From the NCBI GenBank assembly GCA_946615905.1, contig CAMOIE010000011.1, positions 1-64,000 of the forward strand: a DNA stretch of 64,000 nucleotides, in the 5' to 3' direction. The DNA is from an uncultured Treponema sp. (GTDB lineage: Bacteria > Spirochaetota > Spirochaetia > Treponematales > Treponemataceae). Below, one piece after another: positions 35,481-62,315 of this stretch (position 1 is its first letter; every line of letters begins with the position of its first letter). The position numbers and the translations under genes were made by a program. Under the pieces are notes generated by a model, which was not told where the DNA came from, searched no databases, and saw nothing but the letters and a program-made list of their open reading frames with translations.

Positions 35481-35483
35481 TTT

Positions 35484-36170
35484 CTATTCCTGTTTCAAAT
35501 ATTTTTCCAATTCTTCTTTTGCTGACCTTCGCCTTGCATAGCGGAGCATTTTACCCATATCAAGTGAATACCCGCTCAGAAATCCATCATAAATCATCTG
35601 AAACTGTGATTTTGGTATGAGCGCATTCAAATTTTTGTCCGCTACAATATCAACCAAGAATTTTTCAGGCAGGGATGTCCATTTTTCTTGCCGCCCTTTC
35701 GGGGATTCTGTTGTAAGCCTGTTTGCGATGATTGTATCTTTTTGCAGATAAGTCCACATGATGTCTGGCGTAGGTTTCAGCAATATTTTTCCTGGATACA
35801 GTTCGTTTAAATCCTTAAAAACGAAATCAAGTTGCTCATGCTCAATATACAAGAATAGCGTGTTGCTTCCTAATTGTTGGTTCATGAACTCATTTAACTG
35901 TCTTGTTTCAAAAATGCTGAAATTCAGGTCGATATATTTTTCACTAAGCACTTTTGCCAGCGATAGCGCCCACTCTGAATAAGACCAATCATAAACTTTC
36001 TTTGTATTTTCAATTAAGGAGTACGAGTTTCTTCCTGTCCTCGTAATCTTGCCGGAGTTTATCAGGGATTCAATGTTGCGATATTTAGATGAGAAACTTT
36101 GTTTTTTGGGAGAGAGAAATTTATTCAATATTTCTTCCCTATTATAAACAGATACCCCTGCTTTTATCAT
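35484..36170 (-). CDS. abiEi: AbiEi-type antitoxin/repressor (second copy)
   Basis: A 228-aa antitoxin matching the architecture of 14309-15022: N-terminal winged helix (YNREEILNKFLSPKKQSFSS) and the C-terminal block IYDGFLSGYSLDMGKMLRYA followed by RRRSAKEEL. Unlike the first copy it has a clear RBS, AAGGAG, 6 bases before the ATG. Upstream is a 16-base-arm palindrome and a promoter. First gene of a three-gene operon. Confidence 0.82.
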   Translation of the reverse strand: MIKAGVSVYNREEILNKFLSPKKQSFSSKYRNIESLINSGKITRTGRNSYSLIENTKKVYDWSYSEWALSLAKVLSEKYIDLNFSIFETRQLNEFMNQQLGSNTLFLYIEHEQLDFVFKDLNELYPGKILLKPTPDIMWTYLQKDTIIANRLTTESPKGRQEKWTSLPEKFLVDIVADKNLNALIPKSQFQMIYDGFLSGYSLDMGKMLRYARRRSAKEELEKYLKQE

Positions 36171-45900: not shown

Positions 45901-48900
45901 ACGCAGGTCCGTATTATGAGCTTTGGAACAACGGTTGTTTCTTCGACATTTCGGGGGAGTGGGACAATCAGGCTACGGACTGCTACATCGACGGAATTCT
46001 TGATGCGGTGAATGCCGCGGCGGAAAAATCAGGAATGAAGACCGTGAGCCTCTATGAATATGAGGAGCGAGAAAAACAAATTCTTGATTCAATAAAAAAC
46101 GACCTCGTGCTTGCCGCGCTGAACCGTTCAAGCGATGAGCGGTACACCGATGACGACATAAAATTTCTTCTTACGGAAGAGAACATCGAACATGCGCTCG
46201 GCTCAGACATTTTGGAAAACAAGACTGAAATCGAGGCTTTCTATGACAAGTATGGCGTGGACGGCATAAAAAACGCAGTTCTTTGCGATTCGCTCAATCC
46301 CGATGATTTTCCCAAGCCAAAGAATGTGCTTGATTCAAAATATGCTCCCTTGCCCGCTGAAAAACTTATTCATTTCATCAACATCGCGCAGCTTGATTCC
46401 TTCGATACGGAAATGGCGGACGAATGTCTTAAAACTTTCGTGAGCGGAAAAATCCCGCTCGTTTATGATGAACTCGGAAATGTCTATCAGAGAAACATAG
46501 GAAATTCCCGCACGGATTCGGAAGATGATTTTGAGATGCTCAATCCTTCCGCAGTAATTGAATTTTACAAGGACGACCTTGAACGACAGGCGGCGATTGC
46601 AGATGAGGAATGGTTTTCCGAACACAAGAACACAATCGACACGCTGAACGACATTCAGGATTACCTTGTGAAGATTGAGAACACAGTAGAGGTCACGACC
46701 GAGAACGCGGAAATCCTTTCGGACTTCGTGAACGGCCACAAGGAAGAATTCGGAAAAGCCTTCAACAAGACTGACGGCAGAGTTCCCGCTTTCGATGACA
46801 TGACAAAGGAGCTTGCCGAGGACATCATCGAAACGCTTGAAGTCGGCGATTACTCTGTCCGCTACGATGAGGCAGAAAAGAAGTTTTTCATCTATGACCA
46901 GCAGTCTGCCGACGAAACGCTCTTTGAGGAAGTTGACGCAAGCACGCTTGTTTCAAAAGCGGATGAGATAGCGGACAACTGGCACAGGGATGCAGAATCC
47001 ACTACGCATGAAAATGAAATCTGCGAGCGGCTAGAAAAATTCCTTTATCCGACGGAAAGCTTTTATCCTGTAAGGCTTACTTTTGACATGAATGTTCCTT
47101 CGTCCTTCATTGACCTCTTGAAAAAAGACAACAATACATTCTACTCGACTTTTCTGCAAACGACAAAAGAGGTTTTTAAGACAGATACAACAGTCAGCAA
47201 TGCCTACAACGGAAAGTTGGATTCTAAAAACAGATTCAATTTAACTTTTGACCTCGACACCAGCATAGTCGTAAAAGAACCTTTCCACGAAACAGACTTA
47301 AATCAAAAAGAAATTGAAGAGGAACTTTCCAGAAATATAGGAAATGCACTTCAGAACAGGTTCTTGGATTATATTCCGAGAAAGCCTACATGGGAGGACT
47401 TGAAACAACTTTTCAACGAGAAAGAACTGGAGACTGCAAGACAGAGGGCTGAGAAATATGTTGCGAAGAACATATCCGTCTCTGACTTGATTGCCGCGAC
47501 CGTGGTTGAGCTTGGCAGGGATTGCACCGTCACGTTCAACAGCATCACTGCAAGGGAACTCCCGAAAGAACGCACCTGGGATGAAATCAGCGCGGACTGG
47601 AACAATCGTGATTTTGACGAAGCCAAAGAACGCTCAAAAGAAATCTTACAGGAACAGAAAAAAGATTATTCGGAACGAGAACTCAAAGAGGAGACCGTCT
47701 ACCAGCTTTTGTATGACAAAATCCCCGCAAAGCCAGACCGTTCAAGCGAGGAACTTTCCTTCAACAGTTCAGTGCTTGAAGAAATGTCCGAAAAATATGT
47801 CGCAAAAGAACTTTCGTTCGGTGATTTTCAGAATTATTTTGAGGAAAAACAAATGGAACGACAGGAAGAAAATTCCACGCAAAAAGAAGTGAAGGCAGAA
47901 TTCGATGCGGAAAGTTTCAAAGAAAACAAGGCGTATCAAGAATTTCGGGAAGAAGCATTGCGTTTTTCCGAAAGCTACATGAAAAACGGAATAAAGGAAG
48001 TTGACTTCTTCCAGACGCAAACCGCACATTCGACCTCAAGCATAGATTTTTACAGGCTCAAAAAATCCAAGTCACCTGAAGGAAACGAGAATCTTATAGT
48101 CGAATACAACAGAAGCTTCGGAAGCAAGATGAATTTGCTAAACCTGACGACGAATGAATTTATAGGCGATTCCATAAATGAAAAGACTAAATCGTTCATG
48201 GAAAGACAGACCCAAAGCTTCCTGAACCTGTGCGAAAGTCATGCTGATGAATTCATAGATAACGCCGTCAAAAGAGCAAAACTTTTGAGAAAGTTCCAGC
48301 AAGAAACAATGGAGCGGAAATTCTACGACCGCTACGTTGAAGTCTGGAAAAAGGAACACGAGTATGAGGAAGGAGTCTCAGAACCGGCTTCATTCGGTGA
48401 ATTTCTGGACAACGAGTACCTCGATGCACGGATAATGAAAGACTGCCTCTCGGAAGAACTCTACAAGGACTATGCGGGCTACATAAAGGCTTTCTATAAA
48501 AATAAAGTGGAGCAGGGCGAGTTCCTCTCATTTGAAGAGGCGGACAATCTTTCTTTCACACTTTACTCTCTTGACAAGGACTCTGTGAGACCCAGCGGAG
48601 AGCAGATTCTTACAGGGCTTGAAGACGGCTGGGATTTTGATGATGCCTGCAACGGCTACATGATTGCCAACAGCGACGACCTCCCCGAAGGCGTTACCGT
48701 CATCATGCGGCTTGACGACATGCAAGTTTTCGGTGATGACCATGCGGCCGCGCTCCAGGCGGAGAAAGACGGCATAAAGCTCATTCCGAAAGACGAACTG
48801 GATTTCAGGCTTGACGAGGACGGTGAGATTGACGAGCGAAGCCATTACGACTACATCGACACACCAGAAAACCGAAAGCTTTTGAAAGAGGCGGGGCTTC

Positions 48901-51900
48901 TTCGCGGAATAGAAATCGGCGAGTATGTCACGCTCGACCTGAAGGCACTCTCCCAAAGCGAAAAATACCGCCGCACAGGTTTTGACATTGAAAGCGAGAG
49001 CGTTGTGGGAGGCACGACCGAGTGGCTTGAAAACACCTCCAATCGCATCAAGTTCACCCGCGAAGACGGCGAAACTTTTTTTGACCTCATAGATGATGTC
49101 GGAACGGTGCTTGCGGAGAACGGCGAGGAAGTCCGTGTCGTCGAACGAAAAGACGGTATGTATAAGCTCATTGCCGATGAAGAATCCGAGTTGCCTTTTA
49201 CATTCTATCTTTCGGACGAGGACTTCGAGATTGCAACGGGCAGGGTGAGCTTCTCTCAGTTGCGGGAAGAACAGGAAAAAAATGCCGCACATCTTGAAGA
49301 GGCAAAACGGCTCATTTCAGACTTCTGCTTTTCGGGATATATGTCAACGCCCGATTTTGAGGACTTGCGGAACATAGGACTTGCATACACGGATTATTTC
49401 GACCCGGTTACACAGTGCGAATACCCGATTCAGGTGAGCGTGAACCTTGTAGAGCCATCAGTCACCGCGACACTTAACGGAAAGGAAATCTGGAAAGACA
49501 GCTACAAGGACTTGAAGGAACTTAACGAGCTTGCCCTCGCAAACCTCGACTTTGAAAGCCTTGTTTCAACCAGCAATGTTGATGTCGATGCCGCACTCAA
49601 AGATGAGCGTGATTCCCTTGAAGCAGACTTAAAGACTGCCGCCGAAAGAATACTCGGAGAAAGTTTTGAAGAAACAGCGATTAAAGATGTAAAACTGTAT
49701 GACCCTTACGCCTACGGACTTCCGGAAGACAACAAGATTCACATTCTCATCGAAGTAGACTCAAAGTCACGCGAGGACTCCCTTTTCAACGCACTAAATG
49801 CGGGTGGATTCAAACTCCCCAATGGAAAGGAAGTTGACTTCAACCCGATTACGCCGCAAGAGTCTGGAACGATAGAAGAATATCTTGAACATTTAAAATC
49901 TTTGAATGAAAAGGAACGGCATCAGGAAAGCGAAAAATCCGCCGTCACCAACGGAAACTGCCTCGGCTGGGAAGACGAGATTGAATCCTGGCTGAACAAA
50001 AACTTTTACCGTGAGGGAGACCATTTCAACGGAACAAAAACGGTGGGAAAATATTCCTACACGCTGAACCCGTCACTTGCAGAGCGCATTAAGGGAAGTG
50101 AACTCGCCTTGTTTGAGAATGCGAAAGAACCGCCTGAAGAAATACTAAACAGAATCAAGGACTCGAAATTTGACGAAGCCCAAGACTCAAAAATCGCGGA
50201 CATCGTTTCCGACCTTCAGGAATACATGAGGCAGACCTACAACGCCGCATTAAGCGAAGGCGACATTCGGGATTATCTATTTGATGACGAAAAACTGCAA
50301 GTCTTGCAGCCGCCGAATGAGGAATGGCTCTCGCTTGAAACTGACGAAACGAAAAGAAAACTCATAAAAGCGGGAATTCAGATTGCTGAAAACCCACAAA
50401 ACACAAATCAAAAGGAGAACGAAATGGAAAACAACGAAGAAACAGCGGAGAGAAAGACGATGCCTGTCTACACATTCTCGCCGTTCGGATATGAAGGCGC
50501 ACTTGTCCAGATAGAGACTGACCTTCGTCGCGGAATCCCCGCATACGATATTGTAGGAATTTCGGACGGAGTGGTGAAGGAAACGCGCGAGCGGATACGG
50601 GCGGCATTCAGGAACTCTGACCTTGACTTCCCTGCGGAACGAGTCTTGCAGTCAGCAAGCCCAGCCGACCTCAAAAAAGAAGGTCCTTTGGATTTGGCAA
50701 TGGCGGTCGGAATTCTTGCTCAAAAAGGAGACTTCATCAAGGGACCTGTTATGGTCTTGGGTTCGCTTGAGCTTTCAGGACAAGTCCGCCCAGTGAGAGG
50801 TGCGACTGCCGCCGTGAGATGTGCAGTCGAATCGGGAATCAAGAACATCGTCTGCGACCCGATGACAGCAAAGGAAATCGAGAATGTCAGTGGAATCAGA
50901 ATCCTTGAAGTCAGAAACCTTTCCGAGGCGAACGCGGGACTTAAAGACATAGAAAATTTCAGACAGACTGGAACGGAAAAATCACAGGACGCAGAAAATA
51001 AGGTAGAGTTCACTACTAGTCACGATGACGAGGAACTTCCTGACATCGTGAAGGGAAACTATGAGACTGTCCGAGCAATGGAAATTGCTGCGGCGGGAAA
51101 GCACAACATCCTTATTACAGGTGCGCCAGGCTGCGGAAAAACAATCCTCAACACAGAACTCCTTCCCAAAATCACGCCACGGCTCACGCTAGAGGAAAGT
51201 TTCAGCAAGCAAAGAATCTGGTCAATTGCAGGCCTTTATTCCCCAAAGAACGATGACCGCTTGCCATCAATCCGTATGCCCCATCCTACTGCAAGCATTG
51301 AAGGCATGTTTGGCGGTGGGGAGCAATGCAGACCCGGCGAAATCTCGCTTGCACATCACGGAATACTTTTCTTGGATGAGGCGGCAGAATTCAAGACGAG
51401 CGTCCTTCAAATGCTACGCATTCCTCTTGAAAATCGGAGCGTTACCCTCAGCCGTGCGGGAAGAAGCACGGTTTATCCAGCCGACCTTCAGCTTTCAATC
51501 GCGATGAATCCGTGTCCATGCGGGAACAAGGAAACAAACGGCGGAAAACTCTGTCTCGACAGCGAAAAATCAATCGACCAATATTGGGGAAAACTTTCTT
51601 CCTCGCTTCTCGACAAAGTTGAAATCAAAAATTTTATGCAGAAGGACGAGAACGACAAGCGGGAAACAACGCTACAAGAAATGCGTGAGCGAATTGCTAC
51701 CGCAATCAAAATCCAGCGGGAGCGTGGAGTCTACAACTCACGCCTATCACCACAAGAAGTCGCCCACTACTGTGAGATTTCCGATGAGGACAGGAAACTT
51801 CTTGAAAACTTTGCTGAACGCTATGACCTTCCGCAGCGGTCAATCTCGAATACGCTCAAAGTCGCGCTTACGGTAGCCAACATGGACGGAAGAACTCAAA

Positions 51901-53228
51901 TCCGCACGAACGACCTGAAGGAAGCGATGGAAATGACGGCTCCAGTGTTTGAAAAACCCCGCGAATATCATTTTGACCCCGCCTTCCCGCACGGAATCTC
52001 AGCAGATGAGCTGAAAAAGAACATCTCATTCTTCGTGACAGAGACACAGGAATTCAGGGGAGAAATCATCGAAACCGATTTGACCGCACGAGAAGCCTTC
52101 AAACTTGCGGCTGAAAAGAACAAGAATTCGCTTGGCGAATACGGAGTGGGCGCATACTCACCGGACGACATCGCGCTGAACTTCAAGCCCGAAAAAAACG
52201 GCGAAGGGCTTTTCTACTGGATTGTTCCAAACGCAAAGAATCCCGCAGGGTGCGAAATCGACACGACGCTCCTTGAACAGCGACCAAATGAATTTGTCCT
52301 GAATGAAGTAAAGAATCAACTTGAAGAAGCACGGGATTATTACGCAAGGGAAGTGGCGGAGACTCTGGAGCGGAAAACTGAACGAGCAGAAGTAAATGCC
52401 CGCTCCCATAGCCTCGTGAACTCAACAAAAGGAATTGAAATTACTCCCGATGACCTGAAATATGCAAAGACTTTCCTTCCAAAGAGCCAATATTCGCTCG
52501 TCTTGCAGAACACGACCGGCGAAGAAGGCGAACATTTCAAGGAAATAATCAAGAACATCGCTGACAAGGCTCGCTCAATCGAAGGAAAATCAGAAATCGT
52601 TGACGAGAACGGAAAGCATCCGCTGGCGTTCAAGTACACTTTTCCGAACGACACAAAATTCTACATCTCCGAATGGAACGGAGAGGATGAAGTTTTCGGC
52701 TACACCGTCCTCAAAGGCGACACCCAGATGTCCGAATGGGGCTACTCGTCTTTGAGAGAAATCCGCGACCTTTCCCTAAAGGCAAGCAACGGCTTCCCTG
52801 TCACGAGCGAGATGACTTTCTACGGACTGGAGACGACCATCGAGAAAATGGCGGCGAGCGACTATCCCGAACTTGCATCAAGCATGGGCGAGGAAAAGAA
52901 AAGCCACGAAGAAGAAATGATTGCCCAGTTCAGCAAGGAAATGAACGAGGCATTTGCGGAAAAGCACCTTGAGCCGACAACAGAAAACATTCCTGTCGTC
53001 TCCTTCCATGTCATGCAGTCGATGGATTCTTCTGAAAAGAAGGAAATCATCAGCCTCATGGAAAAATGCGGCTGCACCGACGAGACGAAGGCAAATGAAT
53101 TCTTGCTTGCGGTGAAAAACTACGGAACGCCGGGCGGAAAGGCAAAAATCAGACAGGCACTCGAAGCGATTAAGAATCCCGAAAATACGCGGCAGATTGA
53201 GGAAGATGAGCCGGAAGCGGGAATGTAG
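39963..53228 (+). CDS. giant polyvalent protein: RadC/MPN, LPD-like modules, ComM AAA+, DUF2958-like (4421 aa)
   Basis: Multidomain protein of the kind described as 'polyvalent' in phages and conjugative elements. Visible order: an unassigned N-terminal domain (1-140); a RadC/JAB domain with HNHPSGN and SLLD near 273-285; about 3000 residues of mostly helical, acidic LPD-like modules; a complete ComM/YifB protein (about 3500-4010) with ChlI-like part SPFGYEGALVQIETDLRRGI, Walker A TGAPGCGKT near 3720 and Walker B GILFLDEAAEF near 3800; and a DUF2958-like domain (FYISEWNGEDEVFGYTVLKG...WGYSSL). ComM is a helicase that promotes branch migration of incoming ssDNA. The protein ends EDEPEAGM. RBS GAGGGG lies before the ATG. 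An internal start site lies at 50424. Confidence 0.85.
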   Translation: MTYKKFIERYCNGTWEVQDDGGVTSREFDQFARDFKSVLKEICSQDWEVADYSKGHYFVSSFLRNASHPENYLYVHVSDIRYNPNWYESILYRTAENEKDYRGGGNRYASLGELSAALERENRAIEREVQKEFEKTPDDNNISQTQIQEAEEERKRITEPVLSGTKGGLYSAFKTFEEKGVFEIKGQKVDLDDGQLTESGWKQLEAAMEIYRNKKFETFRYVLIDRKSGEILDQLAISAHMPNFCLASLPNNETLKQVITQAEKLDCLVAVCHNHPSGNTKESLLDQKLTLKLEEAMKNQFESRFAGHIILDHGNFNLYIPDLGWKLVKTLTESEKDPLELEEKPEWAEQDAANAASLLAGARKIDGDANWNDDYIPVAFTNIDNKITAIQYYGKDFFKESPNNVRNGFMETAMDSGTVSAFPIVTDSLLKKLPEYERTELEAALKNHVENNAFTDAVFGSLTITEKFNINPGEKYNNAFGDMLEENVSVQSTWNREIDESLFKTKEPMVAAERTAEPEAESYGKNDGARAASEKLDRIIHETFLTLTESERNEGLTEEAKRARYENWQKPIVDEIKAAITDGNPDVIKEIEDFSEDRGDHKSENSWQTDEEAFRNDVTGKLLPELYGKVQEKIKAEFDEKKIPYVQLVFSESRDFGPDGKVYSLKEFNEILTESDSVFHNRRTYAAEKYGSADRYWELENEEKIPDEDKGIRFGYDKTEFKIFNIPNLANPGDTITYEPGRYDIGDGHGSVFDYIRATCSHDSIIEGMNSLEEEMLFPHVADTQKLFVERAVTSVAKNLKENASKAREEVILANELYKKAHDRILIDRSELDAAERALKESSASVRKTYDDAVTSLCWRVLNEYPFAPSSGKNSEFMRYIANAAKKMVEEELYRPTRESQKAMNKGENFEIDWVVQHKIWGAMPSAVNLDDYTSKILWNVAEERGISVSETREEEISEETALTEKMVAKYAEKAEKYKDALKVAYKSGEVSDSEREKLDALKNELGLSEAERDAFEKPYILAKKPQEKGKPLHFNDICDFHNMHLCDAADGGLRWETIDHSDIEYLEVGDTYIEKCVGGGYGISNAFISIGGSIEDLYAEYGENHFPEEAVKDGKVILFDRSEGGVSSTIENYIRTRFNILSAMEIEEEYTESLGIHGEVLKDYIKQANEKEFYDVEISDEDAENLATLCRDFDDIDLYMFKLPFPMNQDIQLVEWDEKDRPIIQEIDTENGFVHLLHELHEHFSGDVYYDSEVATVDRLIAAFNRGVNEERYLASIPTFEDDREKMEDFFRISKDDFLLSYSYLTEREYDATAQKVSERFLQKEGEKKEINLAGLFNGMISESEIAAGSETVLLSSGNTIERSQPNGDSDVRYYDMRNNNAEKYIAFDRIEVTKIAEINGISYFKTDHEDPEFCGEVFSLNESEVNLAFMASDMELSANEAKKEAFISYDTAKSVIFDEEIIYDKEDGTINFYAWATDKLVEQFVPSEKRLGLSDSDNEFNFHFTYKDEKNITLDFSYYKGDEQIFETFKISPESEGFDQLKEIMDAYTVERDGKHIGDYKALDDLEPLEYAKLSQIVNAAAVPLFSDEMSRKIIGHYERHGIPLYKNDENEVFVYHKNYDDPHREYEESPVEKFRLADVLKNYIDEVGAVSEKNGKESDGMLNQIKKVCDSLTVKENIVGNPEKGIDFAENFFCEHFTEQEKRLAREQPAEGKSGDLMSYPQTLAYMKLTERMRGEITLKNGDAIADVLEKIAGKIVSDPNYTLDVAFKEYTAVVPMNTEEILDEYGLDDIGDYSFGIADNLRRWIENYGDNDKEQTFYVEKAILEFDRAANDGSLIPFSGINRYGENDTDYKALPPDEKAKVIRAAESAILELAEKETDSDFSNRNLENALSYLYSFKSDGDKGIDRNIAYAELNRYFQFASQDESGIRSAKYGDMPTDGEYLKIKNITNILNRILSDDGTTITPDGRFCMNWSLDAGPYYELWNNGCFFDISGEWDNQATDCYIDGILDAVNAAAEKSGMKTVSLYEYEEREKQILDSIKNDLVLAALNRSSDERYTDDDIKFLLTEENIEHALGSDILENKTEIEAFYDKYGVDGIKNAVLCDSLNPDDFPKPKNVLDSKYAPLPAEKLIHFINIAQLDSFDTEMADECLKTFVSGKIPLVYDELGNVYQRNIGNSRTDSEDDFEMLNPSAVIEFYKDDLERQAAIADEEWFSEHKNTIDTLNDIQDYLVKIENTVEVTTENAEILSDFVNGHKEEFGKAFNKTDGRVPAFDDMTKELAEDIIETLEVGDYSVRYDEAEKKFFIYDQQSADETLFEEVDASTLVSKADEIADNWHRDAESTTHENEICERLEKFLYPTESFYPVRLTFDMNVPSSFIDLLKKDNNTFYSTFLQTTKEVFKTDTTVSNAYNGKLDSKNRFNLTFDLDTSIVVKEPFHETDLNQKEIEEELSRNIGNALQNRFLDYIPRKPTWEDLKQLFNEKELETARQRAEKYVAKNISVSDLIAATVVELGRDCTVTFNSITARELPKERTWDEISADWNNRDFDEAKERSKEILQEQKKDYSERELKEETVYQLLYDKIPAKPDRSSEELSFNSSVLEEMSEKYVAKELSFGDFQNYFEEKQMERQEENSTQKEVKAEFDAESFKENKAYQEFREEALRFSESYMKNGIKEVDFFQTQTAHSTSSIDFYRLKKSKSPEGNENLIVEYNRSFGSKMNLLNLTTNEFIGDSINEKTKSFMERQTQSFLNLCESHADEFIDNAVKRAKLLRKFQQETMERKFYDRYVEVWKKEHEYEEGVSEPASFGEFLDNEYLDARIMKDCLSEELYKDYAGYIKAFYKNKVEQGEFLSFEEADNLSFTLYSLDKDSVRPSGEQILTGLEDGWDFDDACNGYMIANSDDLPEGVTVIMRLDDMQVFGDDHAAALQAEKDGIKLIPKDELDFRLDEDGEIDERSHYDYIDTPENRKLLKEAGLLRGIEIGEYVTLDLKALSQSEKYRRTGFDIESESVVGGTTEWLENTSNRIKFTREDGETFFDLIDDVGTVLAENGEEVRVVERKDGMYKLIADEESELPFTFYLSDEDFEIATGRVSFSQLREEQEKNAAHLEEAKRLISDFCFSGYMSTPDFEDLRNIGLAYTDYFDPVTQCEYPIQVSVNLVEPSVTATLNGKEIWKDSYKDLKELNELALANLDFESLVSTSNVDVDAALKDERDSLEADLKTAAERILGESFEETAIKDVKLYDPYAYGLPEDNKIHILIEVDSKSREDSLFNALNAGGFKLPNGKEVDFNPITPQESGTIEEYLEHLKSLNEKERHQESEKSAVTNGNCLGWEDEIESWLNKNFYREGDHFNGTKTVGKYSYTLNPSLAERIKGSELALFENAKEPPEEILNRIKDSKFDEAQDSKIADIVSDLQEYMRQTYNAALSEGDIRDYLFDDEKLQVLQPPNEEWLSLETDETKRKLIKAGIQIAENPQNTNQKENEMENNEETAERKTMPVYTFSPFGYEGALVQIETDLRRGIPAYDIVGISDGVVKETRERIRAAFRNSDLDFPAERVLQSASPADLKKEGPLDLAMAVGILAQKGDFIKGPVMVLGSLELSGQVRPVRGATAAVRCAVESGIKNIVCDPMTAKEIENVSGIRILEVRNLSEANAGLKDIENFRQTGTEKSQDAENKVEFTTSHDDEELPDIVKGNYETVRAMEIAAAGKHNILITGAPGCGKTILNTELLPKITPRLTLEESFSKQRIWSIAGLYSPKNDDRLPSIRMPHPTASIEGMFGGGEQCRPGEISLAHHGILFLDEAAEFKTSVLQMLRIPLENRSVTLSRAGRSTVYPADLQLSIAMNPCPCGNKETNGGKLCLDSEKSIDQYWGKLSSSLLDKVEIKNFMQKDENDKRETTLQEMRERIATAIKIQRERGVYNSRLSPQEVAHYCEISDEDRKLLENFAERYDLPQRSISNTLKVALTVANMDGRTQIRTNDLKEAMEMTAPVFEKPREYHFDPAFPHGISADELKKNISFFVTETQEFRGEIIETDLTAREAFKLAAEKNKNSLGEYGVGAYSPDDIALNFKPEKNGEGLFYWIVPNAKNPAGCEIDTTLLEQRPNEFVLNEVKNQLEEARDYYAREVAETLERKTERAEVNARSHSLVNSTKGIEITPDDLKYAKTFLPKSQYSLVLQNTTGEEGEHFKEIIKNIADKARSIEGKSEIVDENGKHPLAFKYTFPNDTKFYISEWNGEDEVFGYTVLKGDTQMSEWGYSSLREIRDLSLKASNGFPVTSEMTFYGLETTIEKMAASDYPELASSMGEEKKSHEEEMIAQFSKEMNEAFAEKHLEPTTENIPVVSFHVMQSMDSSEKKEIISLMEKCGCTDETKANEFLLAVKNYGTPGGKAKIRQALEAIKNPENTRQIEEDEPEAGM
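50412..50426 (+). promoter_or_regulatory. internal in-frame RBS and start codon before the ComM domain
   Basis: AAGGAG (50412-50417), 6 bases, ATG (50424). The ATG is Met3488 of the giant, in frame, and lies about 13 codons before the ComM homology begins. It could give a separate 934-aa ComM-DUF2958 product (50424-53228), or be a remnant of a formerly separate gene joined by loss of a stop codon. Confidence 0.6.
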
Positions 53229-53249: not shown

Positions 53250-56200
53250 ATGGAAAGAAACATACTTTTGCAGAACGAAAAAATCACAATCCGGGAGAAT
53301 ACCGCAAAGCGTGGAATAGAAGTCATTTTTCCCATGAAGCCGGACGAAAAGGCGCGGCAATCCTTAAAAGACGCGGGTTTTCGCTGGTCACGACCGCAGC
53401 AGCTTTGGTGGGCCTATGACAATGAGCGGACACGGCAGTATGTCGAGGAAGAAATCTCATACCAACGCGACATGAAGAAGCTCGCCGATTGGGAAGAATT
53501 TTATCAGGAATATACGGAACTCACGAAAAACGGAAAAAATGAAGAAATCGAGCAGAAATCGCTTTTCTCGCCCGAAAGTTACCTTGAAACTTTCCGCGAA
53601 AAGGCCGAGATGCTGTTTGACAGCCCTTCATTTAAAGATTATACTATCTATAACAAGATAGATAGTAATAGACAGACAGAAGAAACGGAGGTGTCTTATG
53701 AAAGCGATGAATCCAGTGGCGGTGCGTCCGGTCAAGGTGGAGAGCCTTCTGGGAATGGAAGCGGAGAAAGTTCAGGCGGAAATCCTCCTGAACTCGCGGA
53801 ACGGACTGATTCCCAAGTGGAAGGAAATTCCGGAAGCGGACACTCCGGAGATGGACACGGAGACGATCTTCCGCTCGCAGACGGGAGACGGTCTGACGCT
53901 GAGCCTTCACCAGTCTACGGTGCCGCTCCCGATGGACAAATTTCCGAACCTGTTGGGCAAGATGTCGGCGACAAGGACGCTCCAATACGTGCAGAAAATC
54001 TGCAAGCGGGAGGGGTGGTCTATGGAATACCCGAACATCATGGCAGTGCTGAACAACCTGGACATGGAGACAGCCTAAAAATCATAGAACCGACCGAGCC
54101 TTACCGTACAAAGCCGGAAAGTTCGGCCGGGCAATCCCCACAAGCAAGACTCACGAAATCACAAGCCCGCGACATCCGGAGCGAAGTCAAGGAGCTTCTA
54201 TCAAAATTCACAGATGAAGAAATCAAAAGCAATCCCGATTACTTGTCCCTTCTTTCCCAGTATGAGGGCGGTGGTGGTCTGAAGGAACAGGATGCCACAA
54301 GCACGGAAACGTTGAACGCCTTTTACACCCCAAGAAACATCGTGCAGTCAGTCTGGAGCATTGCGGACTTCTACGCTCCGAACGCAAAGACCGTTCTGGA
54401 GCCTTCAAGTGGAATCGGACGCTTCGCCGAGAACAGACCGCAAAACAAATTCACCCTTCGGGAACTTGACGAAACTTCGGCGCGAATCGCGAAAATCCTT
54501 CATCCCGATGCGGAGGTGATTCAAGGTGCGTTCCAGTCGCAGTTTTTTGATGCGGAAGGAGTCGCCCGCAACAAGGACTATGTTCTTCCCAAATATGACC
54601 TCGTTATCGGAAACCCGCCTTACGGCGCGAACTCAGGCGAATGGAAGGGAAAGGGCGAGGGAAAAGAATTCGACCGAATCGAAGAATACTTCCTAAAAAG
54701 AGGTCTGGAGTCGCTCAAAGACGAGAATTCTCTGCTCGTGTTCGTGATGCCGAGCGGATTTCTGAACAGTGCGGACGACGTGCAGAAGCACATCATCGCG
54801 GAGCAGGGGCAGCTTGTCGGAGCGTTCCGCCTTCCTGAAAGGGCATTCCCCACGACTGAGGTCGGAACTGACATCCTCGTGATGAAAGAATACGACCACT
54901 GGCAACGAAACCACATCTCGGATGCGATGACGGACGATGAGCGCGAGACGCGGCGTATTCTAAGCGGCGGTATATATTTCAAGGAACACCCGGAAAACAT
55001 ACTTGGTGAGGTGAATACGCGGACAAACCGGTTCGGGCGTGAAGAGGAATATGTCACAACCCACGAAGGGCTTTCCGTTCAGGACGAGCTGAACAAAATC
55101 GCAAAAATCATCGGCTTTGCGTCAAGAAATGAGAAAATTGAAAATCAGGAAGTTTCGGATGACGGAAATCCGCGATTCGCTCAGACTTCAACCGCTTCAT
55201 CTGCAATTGCAGAAGCCCACGAATTCAAGACGAAAAAATATCCCTACATAAACGAGGACGGAACGCTGAATCCCGACCGAATCCGTGCGGGCGACATCAT
55301 CATTCGTAAAGAGGACGGGATGCCCTATGGCGTTCAATTTGTCATGGGCGACTATATTCGTCTCAACACAATCACAATGAAAAAGGAAAACACCCAAAAC
55401 ACAGAATTGTTTGTGGAAAAAGAAGAAAAACGGTCTGATGAGAAAAGTTTTGAGCTGGGGCAGGACTGGAAAGACGTCGCGAACGAAAGATTTTATGCGC
55501 CGACTCTGGAGCAGCTTGAAAACTGGAAATATCCGTCCTGGTACAAAGAGCATATTGACTATCAGGACAATTTTGAGAGACTGCGTGATAAAATCAGAAA
55601 GCCATTGGCAACGCTTGATTATGAAAGACTTTCAAAAGATGAAGTTTTAAAAAATTTTGCAAAAATCTGCACAAAGGAACTTGAGTTTCTCTGCGAATGG
55701 AACGACAAGACTCGCGAAAATCGAGTAAATCCTAACACGAGCGAAACGCTCACCTACGGAACCGATGAATACGGCTATGCCCGTGTCGCCCATGAACTTG
55801 CGGAAATCTGCGACTTCTACGGCTCCGATCTGGTGCTTGCTGTCGTCACGAATTCCGCACGGTTCATGGCAGAAAACAGTCAGATTGACAGGAATTATTA
55901 CGAACGGTGCATCGAAGAATACAAGGACGATATTTTTAAGACGGCGGAAACAATTCCTTTTGCCGAAGAAATCAAGGATATTGTCTGCTCAGAGGAAAAA
56001 GTAGGCAAAAAAGGACGAGGAAACGAAATCTGGGATTTGAGCCGTGAATACAAGAATCTCACGAAGCACCATGCGATAACTCCCGAATGGACTTTTGATA
56101 AAGTCCTTGAAAAAGAAAACATAACGCTGAATGACATCGCGAAAAATTCTCCATCCTTTATGACTGAGCCGAAAAAAGAAGAAACTGAAGAAGAGGCGGA

Positions 56201-59200
56201 AAAACTTGCCTACTCGGACGGACAGGTTTATTCATATGTTCACGAAGGCTATGCTGCCAAAATCTGCCACGCCGTAAAGGAAGGAAACGAGGATGCCCTA
56301 AACACAATGGCGACATTCCTTGCCAAAAACGTGAGCGAGCCTTGCGTCCTGGTTCCGATTCCGCAGCATACGGGAAAAGCTGAATACACGCTGGAACTCG
56401 CAAAGGAAGTTCAGCGGATTGTAAAGGAAGAAAAAAACATCGACGTTGAGATTGCGGACGTTCTTTCCTCAATGCCACACGAAACTCTTTACGAGCAAAA
56501 AAAGAAGCTCAAAAAACAAGAGCTTACAGACGAGGAGATAAACGCCCTTGATTACGGAAACCTGAAAGTTGACTCGAATTTCAAACTTGAAAGCGGGAAA
56601 ACCTACCTTGCGCTCGACAACGTTTATTCCACGGGAAAGACCTTTGAGGAAACTGAAAAACTCATTTCGGGGATTAGACCGCTAGTTTTCGCAGTAGGGC
56701 ACAGGGGAAAAGAAAAATTCCTTTCTGAGTTCGGAATTAAAAAAGAAACTCCCTACATCGAAAAAGCCTTGCAAAGGGCAAAAGAGAGGACGACCGAAAT
56801 CTCCAGAAAACAGGACGTGCGAAATCTCTTGGGCATTGAGCGAGATTTAAGAATCTCCGACTTCAATTCGTTCTCAAAGTTCCAGTGGTCAAATTCGCAC
56901 AGCGTCGAGTGGTATTTTAAGCCGCATTTCGACATAAACACAAGGCAGCTTCTCATCACCACGGAAGTCGAGCGGAACGGAAAGACGGAAAAAGTCCTTC
57001 TCGGAACAATCATGCCGGACGGCGAGGTAATCAAGACCTACGACGAATACTCCGAGGATTTTCAGGAACAGCGAAAAAAAGGCGGCTGCATCACCAACGC
57101 ACGAAAAGAGCGGCTTGATTTCATATTCGAGGAAATCTCAAAAAAATATCTTCCCGTGATGGATTCATTTCTGGGAGCAAAAGACGGTAGGGCATATTTT
57201 GCTTCATTAGAAGACGATGTGCCTGAAAGAATCTGTGAGCAAAAATATTCCTACGGAAGGGAAGTCGTCGTTTTTTCCTCTGAAAACCTTGAAGAAGTCA
57301 AATTCAAAAATCCGATGAAAATTGTTCTCAACAAGGATTTTTACCCACAAATCTACGAAATGAAAAGGGACGGGGATGACTATGACGGGATTGCAGTCTT
57401 CGCGAAATTGCAGTCGGTCTTTCCCAGAAAAGGAGAGGTAAACCTTTCTGAAATCGAAGATGACAATGCTGTTGCACGGCTTTCAGGTGATGAGGTGGAG
57501 ATTCCGCCCGAAAAATCATTCTACGAATTTGGCGGTGGTTGGAGCGGAGAGAATTCAGACGAGAACTGGAAGAAATACAGCGATTACACCGACTCAATCG
57601 AAGAAGCCCACAAAAAGCAGTGGAATACGGCACTTGATGAGGTGGTGCGTCTTTCAGGCTTTAAGTCACAGGAAGAATATTTTGAAAAAGCAGCTGAAAT
57701 CATAAACACAAGGATTCAGAAGCGGGAAAAGGCATTTGAAGAAAAGATGAAGGAAATACGAGAAGATCAGGATGCCGACATAATCCTGAACGAAATCCTC
57801 TCGCATCGCTTTCAGGTAGGACAGGGTGAATTCACCGTAGCGGGCTACAAAATCAATTTCTCGCAGAACAAGAACGACCATGCGGCAGTTGACGTTTTAA
57901 TTGACGGGAAGAACGTCCTCACGATAAACGAAGAAGAAGCGAGCCTGACTTCCCACGGAAATTTCCGAATTACGCCAAATTTCATAACAAAAATCATGGA
58001 ACGCTGGAACACCTGGCCCACGGTCTCGGACAGCGACACAGAAGAAGAACGGCTTTCCTTGAACGAAATGCTTTCTGAAAAACGCTTCTCGAAAAATGAC
58101 ATCGAAAAGGGCAAATTTATTGCGGAAAATTTCATCACCCTCTCAAAAGAACAGTGGCAGTCTCACGGCTTTGACTACGAAGGGGAAGAGTTTTCCATCC
58201 GAAAATTCGGAACACTCCAGAAAGCCTATCAGGGAAAATCGAACTACCCGCTCTTTGAATTTGACAACCGGAGCGACATCTTGAAACTCTGTCAGGAATC
58301 ATACGACAGGGGAATAATCACCGCAGTCGAGGAAGCGTTCCGAAAAAGGTACGCGAACCTCACCGTCATAAAGGACATAGTAATCGACAAGAACCGCTAC
58401 ATCGACACGGACGGCTCCACGATTATCGCTCCCGCAGAAAGCCCGCGCTACACGCCGGTGAAGGAAGAACTTCTTTCCAACTCCGGCTTTGCGGAAATTT
58501 ACGGGAAGAAATGGAACGAGGGCGAACGCGCGTTCTGGGCGGCGACGGACAGAAAAGGCTATGTTGACACCTCAAAACTCACGGATGAGCAACTGGCGAG
58601 CCTGAAACAGAGCGACAGCTACATCCTTGATTTTGACGGAAAGAGCGAGAGATATATCCACAAGGAACTTTACGCTTCCGAGAACATCTACAAAAAAATC
58701 GACCGTCTGGAAAAACTTTACAAGATGGGAAAAATTGACGAGAAGAATTACAGCCGCAACAAATCCCTTCTTTCCGAATCGCTCCCGGAGCCGAAGCGGA
58801 TTGATGAAATTGAAGTCTCCTTGATTTCTCCTTTCGTTGAGGATTTACGGCTTGACGGCGAGGAACTCAAAGAACGCTTCATAGAGTGGGCAACGGGCTG
58901 CAACATCGAGGACTCGGAGAACAGGCGAGACGACATCACGGACTTCACTGTTGCTGGCATCACGCGCGATGACGTTCCCGCGACAATCACCTGGGGTGAC
59001 ATCGTTGACTATGCGGACGGAACGCCGCTTCCCGCAATCAGGAACGACGAGCTTTCCGACGAGGAGAAGGCACAGGTCCGCAACCAGAAAATCAACGACA
59101 GGAAAGAAACGGCGGAAAGGCTTTTCAACCATTTCCTTCACAATGAATTGACCGATGCGGAAAAAGCCGTAATTGCTGATTCCTACAACCGCAGGTTCAA

Positions 59201-62200
59201 CTCGAACCGCGAGCCAGACTACTCAAAGCTCCCGCTTTTCATCGACGGAATGAACATGTACCGCAAGGGCGAGAAATTCCGTCTCTACGAGCAGCAAATC
59301 AAGGGAATCTCCTTTCTCGGCAACAAGGGAAACGGAATTCTTGCATACGATGTCGGGGTGGGAAAGACCGCCGCCGGAATTGTCGCCACCGTCCAGCAGA
59401 TTCAGAGCGGAAGGGCATTGCGACCATTGATTATCGTTCCGAAGTCAGTAATCGGGAAATGGGAGAGCGACCTGCATGAGCTTTTTCCGAACATTCCCGT
59501 GAACAACCTCGGAAATTTCAGCGAGAGGGCGACAGGCGCATTTTATGACAAGAAATCGCACGGCCTTAACATTCCCGCCGGTTCAATAACGCTGATTACG
59601 AAGGACGCACTCTCAAACCTTCACTGGGACAAGGACACCGTGGACAGGCATCTTTTCTGGGAGTACGCCGACCTTCTTTCCCTGAACGACAGGCTTTCAA
59701 GCGACAATCCAAATGAAAGGGCAATGGCAAGGGAAAGGATTTATGAACTTGCCTGCGGAAAGGCGGGAACAGTCCGCGATTCCTATTATGTCGAATGGAA
59801 GGCGACCAACTTTGACCATGTTACGGTTGACGAGGCTCACGCCTACAAGAACCTCTTCAAGGTGCCGCGACCGAAAAGGGGCGACAAACGTTCCGCGAAC
59901 GAATTCTCGCAGATGGGGTCTGGCGAGCCTTCAAAGCGCGCCCTCAAGATGTTCAACATCACGCAGCTTGTCCAGAAGCAGAACGAGGACAGGAATGTTT
60001 TCATGCTCACGGCGACACCGTTCACGAATTCGCCGCTCGAAGTGTATTCGATGCTCGTCTATGTGGCTCGTAAGGAACTTGAGGAAAAGGGAATCAAAGA
60101 CCTCTACGACTTCTGCGCCCAGTATGCAAAAACCCGCTTTGAGCGCGTGGTTACTGCAAAAGACGTGAAATACGGAACCGTCATGAAAGAATTCGGCGAC
60201 TTGCCCGGCTTGCAGAACATCCTGAAGCAGTATATCGACAAGGTGGACGGAGACGAGGCGGGAATCATACGGCCTGACAAGGCGACTCACGAAGCCTATC
60301 TTGCTCCGTCGGACATTCAGAAAGAAATATTTGAATTCGCGACCGAAATTCTCATGGAATACAAGCCCGACAGGAACAAGGACGAAAAACGCGCCCCAGT
60401 CCTTGAGGCGATGAACATGATGCGTACCGCCTGTCTTTCCCCGGCTTTGGTAAAGCAGTCAAAGCTCATCGACCCGAACAACAATCTGCCCGTTGGCATT
60501 CAGGTTCCGCCTATTCAGGAAGTCGTCACCTCATCGCCGAAACTGAAGCTTGTCTGCGACACCGTTATCAAGAACTGGCAGAAGCACCCGGACTGCGGAC
60601 AAGTAATCTATATGCCCGAAGGAACGGACGCATACCCCCATGTAATAAAATACATGAAGGACAAGGGAGTCCCGTCAAGCGTGTTCGCGAGCATTGACGG
60701 AAGCGAGGCAAAAATCGGCGGTGTCAGGGTAGGGAAGAAAAGCCGCGGCCGCGATGATGACGACGAGGACATCGGGGACGACGTGCGGGCGAAAGTCGCG
60801 GAGGCTTTCAACGATAAGAAAAATCCCTGCAAAATCCTGATTGGCTCCGCCGCAATCAGCGAGGGAATGGACTTGAACGGAAATTCAATCGCGCTCTACA
60901 ACACCATGCTCGGCTGGAATCCGACGGAGAGCGTCCAGGTAGAAGGACGAATCTGGCGGCAGGGAAACGAGCAGGGAAAAGTCCATGTCGTTTACCCGCT
61001 GATTTACGACAGCATCGACTCGCTTTTGTTCCAGAAGCATGACGAGAAGCAGTCCAGAATCAACGACCTTTTTTCATTCAAGGGAAGCTCGCTCAATGTC
61101 GCGGACATAAACCCGGAGGAACTCAAATACGCGCTCATCAAGAATCCAGTCCGCAGGGCAAAGATTGAGATTGAGGATGTCGCCGTGGAAAAGAGAAAGG
61201 AAATCCTCTTGCTTGAAAATCAGCTCATGGACTACGAACAGCTTTGCGAGAGCCGAATCAAATGGAAGGAAAAACTTTCCGAAAAGGAAGCCTCAAAACA
61301 GACCTACATACAAAATCATAAGGATTCGCTCTTTGATGGAAAGCCAAACCGAACGGAAGAAGAGCAGAAAGAAGGCGAGGCACGGTTCGACAAGTCCATC
61401 GAAGACTGCAAGAGGCAGATTGAAAACATCCGCCGCAAATTTGCCGGAATGGGAATAAAGACAAAAGCGGACGAGGCGAACTTTACCGAGAAGGTCAATT
61501 CGGCAAAACGGGTCAAGGAAGACGAGCTTTCCGCACTTTACGACAGCGAGAACTTCCAGAGAATCGTCAGCAAATACAGAAAAATCCTTGAGGCGGAAAA
61601 AATAGAGCAGATTGAGAAAACGCTGACACACCCGCTGGAACAGGACATCCAGAATGACATGGTTCCCATGCATGTCGTGGAAAAGCGGACAAAGGAGAGT
61701 CATTACAAGGAAGCGATGAAGACCGCAGAGGGAAATCCCGAACTCCAGAAGGAACTCACGGAAAACTGGAACGATTATCTGGCAAAATACGAAAATAAGT
61801 GGAATCCAAAGCCACAAGCCGAGGCAAAGCCCATGGTCGAAGTTAAAACTGGGAGCGTGAAGGAATCAAATTCCGGACAATCAGAGCCGCTGGTCAGAAT
61901 CATCAAGACTCAGATTGATGAGATTGACAACGAGCGTGACAAAGAGGCTCTCTCGCAAGGTTTCCTTTTTGCCGTAAAGACCGTACCGCTTGATGTCACA
62001 AGGGTGCTTGACGCGAAGGAAATTGAGTGGGAAAGCACCACGGCGGAGAACTTCTCGGACAACATGCGGGCTGTCTTCACGAATGCAAGACAGATTTCCC
62101 GCGAGGCAGTCCTAAAAACCGCATATAAGCTGCTGAACTCAATGCCGCAGGCGGAAAAAGAAAAGTTCCTTGAATCGGCAAGTCAGATGGGCATATCGAC

Positions 62201-62315
62201 AAAGGAAAAGTCCGATGCGTTCTTCATGGACATGGCGAAGGGCAAGAATCCCTTCTTGAAAAACAAAATGCTTGTCGCAGAAAAAGCCGAAGAGCCTGAA
62301 TACGACATTTTTTAG
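53250..62315 (+). CDS. giant polyvalent protein: N6-MTase, PRTase, SNF2 helicase (3021 aa)
   Basis: The order read from sequence is as follows. A small domain (1-70) has RGIEVIFPMKPDEKARQSLK and FRWSRPQQLWWA. A Gly/Ser/Pro-rich linker lies at about 148-280. The N6-adenine methyltransferase has motif I VLEPSSGIGRF near 384 and DLVIGNPPYG near 455. The phosphoribosyltransferase domain has LALDNVYSTGKT near 1120. Mixed modules follow. The SNF2-like helicase has AYDVGVGKTAAG near 2032, VTVDEAHAYKN near 2190, MLTATPFTNS near 2252, SEGMDLNG near 2538 and EGRIWRQGN near 2565. The MTase-plus-helicase layout recalls phage P1 DarB, which enters the cell with DNA and protects it from restriction. RBS GGAG lies before the ATG. 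The linker is overprinted by a nested gene (53698-54078). Confidence 0.88.
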   Translation: MERNILLQNEKITIRENTAKRGIEVIFPMKPDEKARQSLKDAGFRWSRPQQLWWAYDNERTRQYVEEEISYQRDMKKLADWEEFYQEYTELTKNGKNEEIEQKSLFSPESYLETFREKAEMLFDSPSFKDYTIYNKIDSNRQTEETEVSYESDESSGGASGQGGEPSGNGSGESSGGNPPELAERTDSQVEGNSGSGHSGDGHGDDLPLADGRRSDAEPSPVYGAAPDGQISEPVGQDVGDKDAPIRAENLQAGGVVYGIPEHHGSAEQPGHGDSLKIIEPTEPYRTKPESSAGQSPQARLTKSQARDIRSEVKELLSKFTDEEIKSNPDYLSLLSQYEGGGGLKEQDATSTETLNAFYTPRNIVQSVWSIADFYAPNAKTVLEPSSGIGRFAENRPQNKFTLRELDETSARIAKILHPDAEVIQGAFQSQFFDAEGVARNKDYVLPKYDLVIGNPPYGANSGEWKGKGEGKEFDRIEEYFLKRGLESLKDENSLLVFVMPSGFLNSADDVQKHIIAEQGQLVGAFRLPERAFPTTEVGTDILVMKEYDHWQRNHISDAMTDDERETRRILSGGIYFKEHPENILGEVNTRTNRFGREEEYVTTHEGLSVQDELNKIAKIIGFASRNEKIENQEVSDDGNPRFAQTSTASSAIAEAHEFKTKKYPYINEDGTLNPDRIRAGDIIIRKEDGMPYGVQFVMGDYIRLNTITMKKENTQNTELFVEKEEKRSDEKSFELGQDWKDVANERFYAPTLEQLENWKYPSWYKEHIDYQDNFERLRDKIRKPLATLDYERLSKDEVLKNFAKICTKELEFLCEWNDKTRENRVNPNTSETLTYGTDEYGYARVAHELAEICDFYGSDLVLAVVTNSARFMAENSQIDRNYYERCIEEYKDDIFKTAETIPFAEEIKDIVCSEEKVGKKGRGNEIWDLSREYKNLTKHHAITPEWTFDKVLEKENITLNDIAKNSPSFMTEPKKEETEEEAEKLAYSDGQVYSYVHEGYAAKICHAVKEGNEDALNTMATFLAKNVSEPCVLVPIPQHTGKAEYTLELAKEVQRIVKEEKNIDVEIADVLSSMPHETLYEQKKKLKKQELTDEEINALDYGNLKVDSNFKLESGKTYLALDNVYSTGKTFEETEKLISGIRPLVFAVGHRGKEKFLSEFGIKKETPYIEKALQRAKERTTEISRKQDVRNLLGIERDLRISDFNSFSKFQWSNSHSVEWYFKPHFDINTRQLLITTEVERNGKTEKVLLGTIMPDGEVIKTYDEYSEDFQEQRKKGGCITNARKERLDFIFEEISKKYLPVMDSFLGAKDGRAYFASLEDDVPERICEQKYSYGREVVVFSSENLEEVKFKNPMKIVLNKDFYPQIYEMKRDGDDYDGIAVFAKLQSVFPRKGEVNLSEIEDDNAVARLSGDEVEIPPEKSFYEFGGGWSGENSDENWKKYSDYTDSIEEAHKKQWNTALDEVVRLSGFKSQEEYFEKAAEIINTRIQKREKAFEEKMKEIREDQDADIILNEILSHRFQVGQGEFTVAGYKINFSQNKNDHAAVDVLIDGKNVLTINEEEASLTSHGNFRITPNFITKIMERWNTWPTVSDSDTEEERLSLNEMLSEKRFSKNDIEKGKFIAENFITLSKEQWQSHGFDYEGEEFSIRKFGTLQKAYQGKSNYPLFEFDNRSDILKLCQESYDRGIITAVEEAFRKRYANLTVIKDIVIDKNRYIDTDGSTIIAPAESPRYTPVKEELLSNSGFAEIYGKKWNEGERAFWAATDRKGYVDTSKLTDEQLASLKQSDSYILDFDGKSERYIHKELYASENIYKKIDRLEKLYKMGKIDEKNYSRNKSLLSESLPEPKRIDEIEVSLISPFVEDLRLDGEELKERFIEWATGCNIEDSENRRDDITDFTVAGITRDDVPATITWGDIVDYADGTPLPAIRNDELSDEEKAQVRNQKINDRKETAERLFNHFLHNELTDAEKAVIADSYNRRFNSNREPDYSKLPLFIDGMNMYRKGEKFRLYEQQIKGISFLGNKGNGILAYDVGVGKTAAGIVATVQQIQSGRALRPLIIVPKSVIGKWESDLHELFPNIPVNNLGNFSERATGAFYDKKSHGLNIPAGSITLITKDALSNLHWDKDTVDRHLFWEYADLLSLNDRLSSDNPNERAMARERIYELACGKAGTVRDSYYVEWKATNFDHVTVDEAHAYKNLFKVPRPKRGDKRSANEFSQMGSGEPSKRALKMFNITQLVQKQNEDRNVFMLTATPFTNSPLEVYSMLVYVARKELEEKGIKDLYDFCAQYAKTRFERVVTAKDVKYGTVMKEFGDLPGLQNILKQYIDKVDGDEAGIIRPDKATHEAYLAPSDIQKEIFEFATEILMEYKPDRNKDEKRAPVLEAMNMMRTACLSPALVKQSKLIDPNNNLPVGIQVPPIQEVVTSSPKLKLVCDTVIKNWQKHPDCGQVIYMPEGTDAYPHVIKYMKDKGVPSSVFASIDGSEAKIGGVRVGKKSRGRDDDDEDIGDDVRAKVAEAFNDKKNPCKILIGSAAISEGMDLNGNSIALYNTMLGWNPTESVQVEGRIWRQGNEQGKVHVVYPLIYDSIDSLLFQKHDEKQSRINDLFSFKGSSLNVADINPEELKYALIKNPVRRAKIEIEDVAVEKRKEILLLENQLMDYEQLCESRIKWKEKLSEKEASKQTYIQNHKDSLFDGKPNRTEEEQKEGEARFDKSIEDCKRQIENIRRKFAGMGIKTKADEANFTEKVNSAKRVKEDELSALYDSENFQRIVSKYRKILEAEKIEQIEKTLTHPLEQDIQNDMVPMHVVEKRTKESHYKEAMKTAEGNPELQKELTENWNDYLAKYENKWNPKPQAEAKPMVEVKTGSVKESNSGQSEPLVRIIKTQIDEIDNERDKEALSQGFLFAVKTVPLDVTRVLDAKEIEWESTTAENFSDNMRAVFTNARQISREAVLKTAYKLLNSMPQAEKEKFLESASQMGISTKEKSDAFFMDMAKGKNPFLKNKMLVAEKAEEPEYDIF
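53617..53697 (+). promoter_or_regulatory. promoter, palindromic operator and RBS of a nested gene
   Basis: -35 TTGACA (53617-53622), 17 bases, -10 TATACT (53640-53645). The perfect inverted repeat ACTATCTAT-N6-ATAGATAGT (53643-53666) overlaps the -10 and the expected start site. GGAGG (53687-53691) lies 6 bases before ATG 53698. All four signals occur in order inside the coding region of the 3021-residue protein. Confidence 0.68.
53698..54078 (+). CDS. nested out-of-frame gene inside the 3021-residue giant (126 aa)
   Basis: A 126-aa protein read in another frame through the Gly/Ser-rich linker of the surrounding giant. It begins MKAMNPVAVRPVKVESLLGM, has normal amino-acid composition and a likely helical C-terminus (TRTLQYVQKICKREGWSMEY). 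Its codons follow the G/C-ending preference of the neighbouring genes (CTG, AAG, GAG, CCG, GCG, ATC, AAC). The enclosing frame here reads as low-complexity linker. It has its own promoter, operator and RBS. I do not recognise the family. A small regulated gene may have been overrun by, or inserted into, the giant gene. Expression is not shown. Confidence 0.58.
   Translation: MKAMNPVAVRPVKVESLLGMEAEKVQAEILLNSRNGLIPKWKEIPEADTPEMDTETIFRSQTGDGLTLSLHQSTVPLPMDKFPNLLGKMSATRTLQYVQKICKREGWSMEYPNIMAVLNNLDMETA

Follow-up and report, generated by a model that had tools for sequence, protein, structure and literature searches.

The stretch of DNA analysed here (the window), 64,000 nucleotides from an uncultured Treponema species, raises the question of whether one gene of a conjugative element contains another. 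A reading made from the sequence alone had proposed that the gene for a 3021-aa polyvalent protein harbours, within the region encoding a linker, a separately regulated gene of 126 codons in a different frame.

A 126-codon frame inside a DarB-like gene

The enclosing gene (53250-62315, forward strand) encodes an N-terminal domain, a linker, an Eco57I-type adenine methylase (aa 430-515) and a SNF2/helicase region (SNF2, aa 2026-2108; Helicase_C, aa 2509-2572). The union of an adenine methylase and a SWI2/SNF2 helicase in one mobile-element protein assigns this giant to the DarB-like polyvalent proteins (PMC5512222), and on the precedent of P1 DarB it would protect the element’s DNA against restriction (PMC5512222). 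The source genome (2.96 Mb, 47 contigs) carries a conjugative element with a relaxase, VirD4, VirB11, VirB4, TrbL, CagX and TrbI, of which the relaxase, VirD4, VirB4, CagX and TrbI share the giant’s contig. Further proteins of the element include one with an ArdC-N domain and a 4421-aa polyvalent protein; the latter, encoded directly upstream of the DarB-like gene (39963-53228), combines RadC and LPD25 with a complete magnesium-chelatase/ComM-like module at its C-terminus.

The nested frame (53698-54078, forward strand; stop codon at 54076-54078) is offset by +1 from that of its host, and is a complete open reading frame with its own start and ribosome binding site inside another. The Shine-Dalgarno sequence GGAGG (53687-53691) lies 6 nt before the ATG at 53698, and a sigma-70-like promoter (53617-53645) stands upstream, with TTGACA (53617-53622) and TATACT (53640-53645) separated by 17 bp and matching at 11 of 12 positions. 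All of these elements, and the 126 codons that follow, are present just as the sequence-only reading had described them. The perfect palindrome it placed over the start site is also there, with arms of 10 bp rather than 9 bp: this inverted repeat (53642-53667), a candidate operator, has arms at 53642-53651 and 53658-53667 around a 6-nt spacer, and overlaps both the -10 element and the predicted start site.

The composition of the two frames likewise agrees with what had been claimed. GC content at the three codon positions of the nested frame is 0.56/0.37/0.77, bearing out the proposed codon bias, and the order is inverted in the host frame over the same stretch. The overprinted part of the host (53697-54074, host aa 150-275) is a linker rich in G, S, P and D, with 21% glycine versus 5% elsewhere in the protein, and the proposal that the nested gene shapes its composition is supported.

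The length of the frame is a different matter. The +1 frame is open for 138 codons at this locus, including an upstream opening from 53662, yet a different part of the gene has a still longer +1 run, the host maximum of 160 codons, and when the host codons were permuted synonymously, 712 of 1000 trials produced a +1 run of at least the length seen here. An open frame of this length alone is unremarkable, and hence the case from this one sequence is weaker than it had appeared. What does go beyond chance expectation is the codon-position composition, the promoter (the window has three sites that match at 11/12 positions, this one included), and the perfect 10-bp inverted repeat, which arose in 2 of 2000 shuffles and 1 of 180 tiles.

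Homologues and selection on both frames

Querying with the 126-aa protein found relatives in seven other genomes of the genus, a profile search extended this to 31 of 200 genus genomes, and a profile search of a phylum sample found members in five genera of the family. There was no homologue in viral contigs, nor in phage or plasmid records searched by tblastn with the window protein. The small protein belongs to an undescribed family of Treponemataceae conjugative elements.

The family exists in two states. Twelve copies are nested, every one of them in the +1 frame of a DarB-like giant and positioned shortly before its methylase domain; other giants were found using the methylase segment directly downstream of the nested gene (54150-55350, forward strand) as the query. 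These copies are those in the window, T. porcinum ATCC BAA-908 (G080) and genomes G055, G111, G230, G085, G268, G002, G519, G531, G397 and G622; a further nested copy, in G070, is truncated and lies outside this count. Some nested copies are short (68-77 aa), retaining the C-terminal core alone. Stand-alone homologues, which the sequence-only reading had named as a check on itself, occur at about 20 loci. These free genes are often divergent from virD4, preceded by a ribbon-helix-helix (RHH) gene and followed by a gene for a lipoprotein of about 210 aa, itself without a Pfam match; this cassette is seen at around 9-10 kb in five Treponema loci (L012, L011, L109, L106 and L107). One free copy has been annotated, as WP_013702793.1 on T. 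succinifaciens pTRESU01. The T. succinifaciens genome (G278, contigs C1 and C2) holds two elements that each combine a giant with a free small gene; the large contig carries one of them, and a contig matching pTRESU01 the other.

On several contigs the free gene shares an element with a giant that has no nested copy, and hence an element generally has a single copy, whether nested or free. The small gene was not found in four genomes with a giant (G084, G087, G625 and G628), and it is also present in genomes in which no giant was detected (e.g. G015, G214 and G099). It is therefore not strictly a partner of DarB-like proteins, which argues against its product being an obligate DarB subunit.

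Comparison between homologous elements, also named as a check, shows constraint on both frames. Differences between the window and T. porcinum at the first, second and third positions of the nested codons number 40/24/63 (chi-square p = 1e-4), and amino acid identity is 62% in the nested frame versus 36% for the host frame read from the identical bases; similarly, all three of the differences that separate the G230 and G085 copies are at nested third positions. Hence the nested frame is under purifying selection. The host-type frame contains no stops in 11 of the 11 nested copies tested, whereas stops interrupt it in 18 of 20 free copies. Synonymous shuffling of the nested gene left the host frame open in 0 to 40% of shuffles, with at most 13% open for nine of the eleven nested copies. 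The host frame is thus maintained where the small gene is nested, and both frames are therefore under selection. The host linker has a G/S/P/N content of 0.33-0.50 in nested copies, versus 0.24-0.35 in the same phase of free copies, and so seems to have adapted to disorder within the constraint imposed by the nested gene. Another long +1 frame of the giant (59713-60168, 151 aa), used as a control, has its substitutions distributed as is usual for the host frame (42/40/118) and is interrupted by eight stops in T. porcinum; both results mark it as a chance opening.

Expression and origin of the nested gene

Translation signals are conserved along with the frame. A Shine-Dalgarno sequence precedes the nested start in 12 of 12 copies, or 9 of 9 on a fair count, as three starts were placed at internal ATGs chosen by searching for such a sequence; by comparison, 31 of 933 (3.3%) alternative-frame ATGs of the giants have one. 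Together with the homologues and the selection on both frames, this upholds the claim of a gene within a gene with its own ribosome binding site, and the comparative evidence leaves no reasonable doubt that the gene is real. No unusual RNA fold was found at the nested ribosome binding site.

Transcription signals are more local. The T. porcinum copy has the same promoter with the same 17-bp spacing, 55 nt in total to the ATG versus 52 in the window, although its conservation is partly explained by that of host residues (LFD...Y), and no promoter-like site was found in the other nested copies. The dedicated promoter therefore holds as a proposal for the lineage of the window and T. porcinum, in which it is predicted to be active, and fails for the remaining copies. 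The same is true of the suggestion that the small protein is made independently of the 9-kb mRNA, which is possible in this lineage and is not general, as distant nested copies without such a site would have to rely on internal initiation on the long mRNA. Internal translation initiation is thus the likely general mechanism. The palindrome has no second copy in the 2.96-Mb genome and is not conserved in relatives; a shared operator was rejected on the former ground, and the description of the gene as constitutively repressed finds no footing.

Leaving aside what the small protein does, we consider it very probable that this is a dual-coding locus with internal initiation at the nested ATG. The same bases at 53698-54078 would be read in the +1 frame, after initiation at GGAGG-N6-ATG, as a structured 126-aa protein, and in the host frame as a disordered linker joining the N-terminal domain of the giant to its methylase; in this lineage, the internal promoter could additionally allow the small protein to be made without the long mRNA. 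This account draws on the open frame, the selection on both frames, the conserved Shine-Dalgarno sequence, the free homologues, and the recurrence of a single place and frame. The G/S-rich codon usage of the linker might instead leave the +1 frame open by accident, as frame length by itself would allow, but the free homologues, the constraint on the nested frame and the conserved Shine-Dalgarno sequence refute this, reducing its probability to practically nil.

Programmed +1 frameshifting, which would produce a fusion of the N-terminal domain to the small domain rather than a protein initiated at the nested ATG, is a further alternative. The nested frame is open upstream of its ATG from 53662, Shine-Dalgarno-like motifs can stimulate frameshifting, and in the record of Sinorhizobium phage PBC5 the N-terminal half of a giant is in frame with the small domain. 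However, nearly all copies across families have a properly spaced ATG, the free homologues are complete alone with their own Shine-Dalgarno sequences, short nested forms begin right at the core, and no slippery site was noticed. The PBC5 record is also a single old entry, whereas six phages have the small gene nested at +1, and frameshifting is accordingly judged highly unlikely. In that record (L144, AF448724) the giant appears as two parts, orf33 and orf23, and the frame changes just before the nested domain; the cause is either a mistake in the early sequencing or a genuine fusion of the N-terminal half to the small domain. This domain also forms the end of phrog_938 (endolysin, 2185 positions).

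How dual coding arose is a more evenly poised question. A free element gene may have been captured by, or overlapped onto, the giant on one or more occasions, as opposed to originating de novo within the linker and escaping later, and we would put the two on a level footing. Capture is suited by the number and diversity of the free copies, by the stronger constraint on the nested than on the host frame, and by the clustering of nested copies in the tree of the small gene. However, the basal giants of the methylase tree are all nested, which suits ancient nesting followed by escapes, and the nested state does not form one clade in that tree, with recombination blurring the direction. The methylase tree requires at least five changes between nested and free states and rejects a single nested clade (AU p 4e-6); the small-gene tree has 3 state changes, versus 9.3 when shuffled, and does not reject one (p 0.26). 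Both trees would fit a single nesting followed by recombination or escape, with the direction left ambiguous.

Parallel arrangements in other giants and the role of the small protein

Comparable arrangements were found in other DarB-like giants, which were picked from search hits rather than sampled at random, such that their numbers imply no frequency. TnpV (PF14198), a gene of about 113 aa, is nested in the +1 frame with a Shine-Dalgarno sequence upstream of the methylase in eight Bacillota-type loci, several of them gut contigs, and one Arthrobacter plasmid (Actinomycetota); the host frame is again linker-like, and TnpV also occurs free-standing. It differs in often lying 1-3.5 kb upstream of the methylase, whereas the Treponema gene is directly upstream, and in showing no sequence relationship that hhalign could detect (probability 0.1%) to the Treponema family, whose protein has neither a Pfam match nor profile similarity to PF14198. 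A phage family (MNLxxW...YLFPPEE), nested in giants of PEp14, SopranoGao, Itty13, Atu_ph08, POI1126 and VvAW1, shares the +1 frame, the Shine-Dalgarno sequence and the position directly before the methylase; its relationship to TnpV is weak (Pfam E 4e-4, which misses the cutoff), and none to the Treponema family was detectable. A third family, of 158 aa, has homologues in 212 Campylobacter and Helicobacter plasmid records, and is nested in the +1 frame of SNF2 giants of conjugative plasmids in all three loci examined (L127 and L139, both 5288-5764; L148, 2501-2977), again with a Shine-Dalgarno sequence and directly upstream of the methylase. Its differences between H. apodemus and C. lari (29/12/65, p 1e-9) and a host frame open against expectation match the Treponema pattern, although no sequence relation to the Treponema family was found. 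The C. fetus giant contains a different nested frame, of 168 aa. Homology of the Treponema family to TnpV or the Campylobacter family was not detected, with profile probabilities of at most 1%, like those of reversed-sequence controls.

The arrangement is not universal, as no nested gene was found at the corresponding place in P1 DarB or the giants of Leptospira LE1/pLiSL40, Chryseobacterium and Acetobacter. P1 DarB resembles the enclosing gene in joining an Eco57I-type methylase to a SWI2/SNF2 helicase in a mobile element, but its methylase is near the N-terminus. Complete small genes within other mobile-element genes are known, including Rz1, embedded in Rz on the same strand (PMC9144972), and ardD, antisense within tniA (PMC3533173); these are other genes, without a methylase/helicase giant, and ardD lies on the opposite strand. 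The paper on polyvalent proteins is silent on both overlapping genes and TnpV (PMC5512222), and no description of +1 nested genes in DarB-like giants was found in the literature searched, coverage of which was incomplete.

We are evenly divided as to whether DarB-like giants of phages, plasmids and ICEs, spanning at least five phyla, habitually carry a +1 nested small gene in the linker upstream of the methylase, with several unrelated or highly diverged families (that of Treponema, TnpV with its phage relatives, and the 158-aa family of Campylobacterota) sharing a niche that would imply a role linked to the giant. If so, the shared role could be that of a co-delivered or co-regulated partner protecting incoming DNA, and TnpV would be misnamed as a transposon protein. 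Few long nested genes on the same strand are well supported in bacteria, and here a single type of mobile-element gene shows the arrangement in several phyla; as the same small gene exists both nested and free, nature offers an unusually clean comparison with which to test overlapping coding. The parallels suggest that a widespread anti-restriction system has partners hidden from view, and indicate where the function of TnpV might be sought. Annotation pipelines suppress the arrangement, and it is usually the small gene that is missed. For the Monoglobus and Cohnella plasmids, the gene table lists TnpV and lacks the enclosing methylase/helicase giant of >2000 aa (L136, 6334-12888; L137, 6142-12375), the PLSDB table being known to be incomplete; elsewhere the reverse is seen, with the giant annotated and TnpV omitted.

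An AlphaFold2 model of the Treponema protein has a pLDDT of 77 overall and about 90 over residues 80-126, the C-terminal third, which form one strand and three helices; a fold search with this model gave no match in PDB or BFVD. Sequence searches of Pfam, PHROGs, NCBIfam, PADLOC and PDB were also negative, such that PADLOC, NCBIfam and PHROGs assign the protein to none of the known families of defence or anti-defence. A DNA mimic of the ArdA/Ocr antirestriction type was rejected, as the protein is not strongly acidic (net charge -2, K+R minus D+E). The original suggestion of an immunity, anti-defence or regulatory factor is therefore unsupported, being decided by neither family, fold nor context.

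Our tentative first choice is that the product is a small cytosolic accessory, made alongside the antirestriction giant and serving the establishment of the element or anti-restriction, because the gene is linked to conjugative elements and to such a giant both here and in the parallel families. Nearly as likely, though still doubtful, is a regulator of the element's transcription or a factor of the excisionase type, as suggested by the small size of the protein, the palindrome at its promoter, the RHH gene adjoining free copies (a weak RHH_7/NikA match) and the naming after a transposon of TnpV, the counterpart at this position in Bacillota giants; against this, there is no match to an HTH or excisionase family or fold, and the palindrome is neither repeated in the genome nor conserved. 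A component of exclusion is a distant third, and improbable. A toxin-antitoxin reading of the RHH and small gene pair is unlikely, as no GAGRK-type RHH gene was present in the nested-type loci searched. Separately, an AbiEii nucleotidyltransferase toxin adjoins a DUF6577 protein on the reverse strand of the window (34425-36170), so that the element apparently also carries a toxin-antitoxin pair of type IV.
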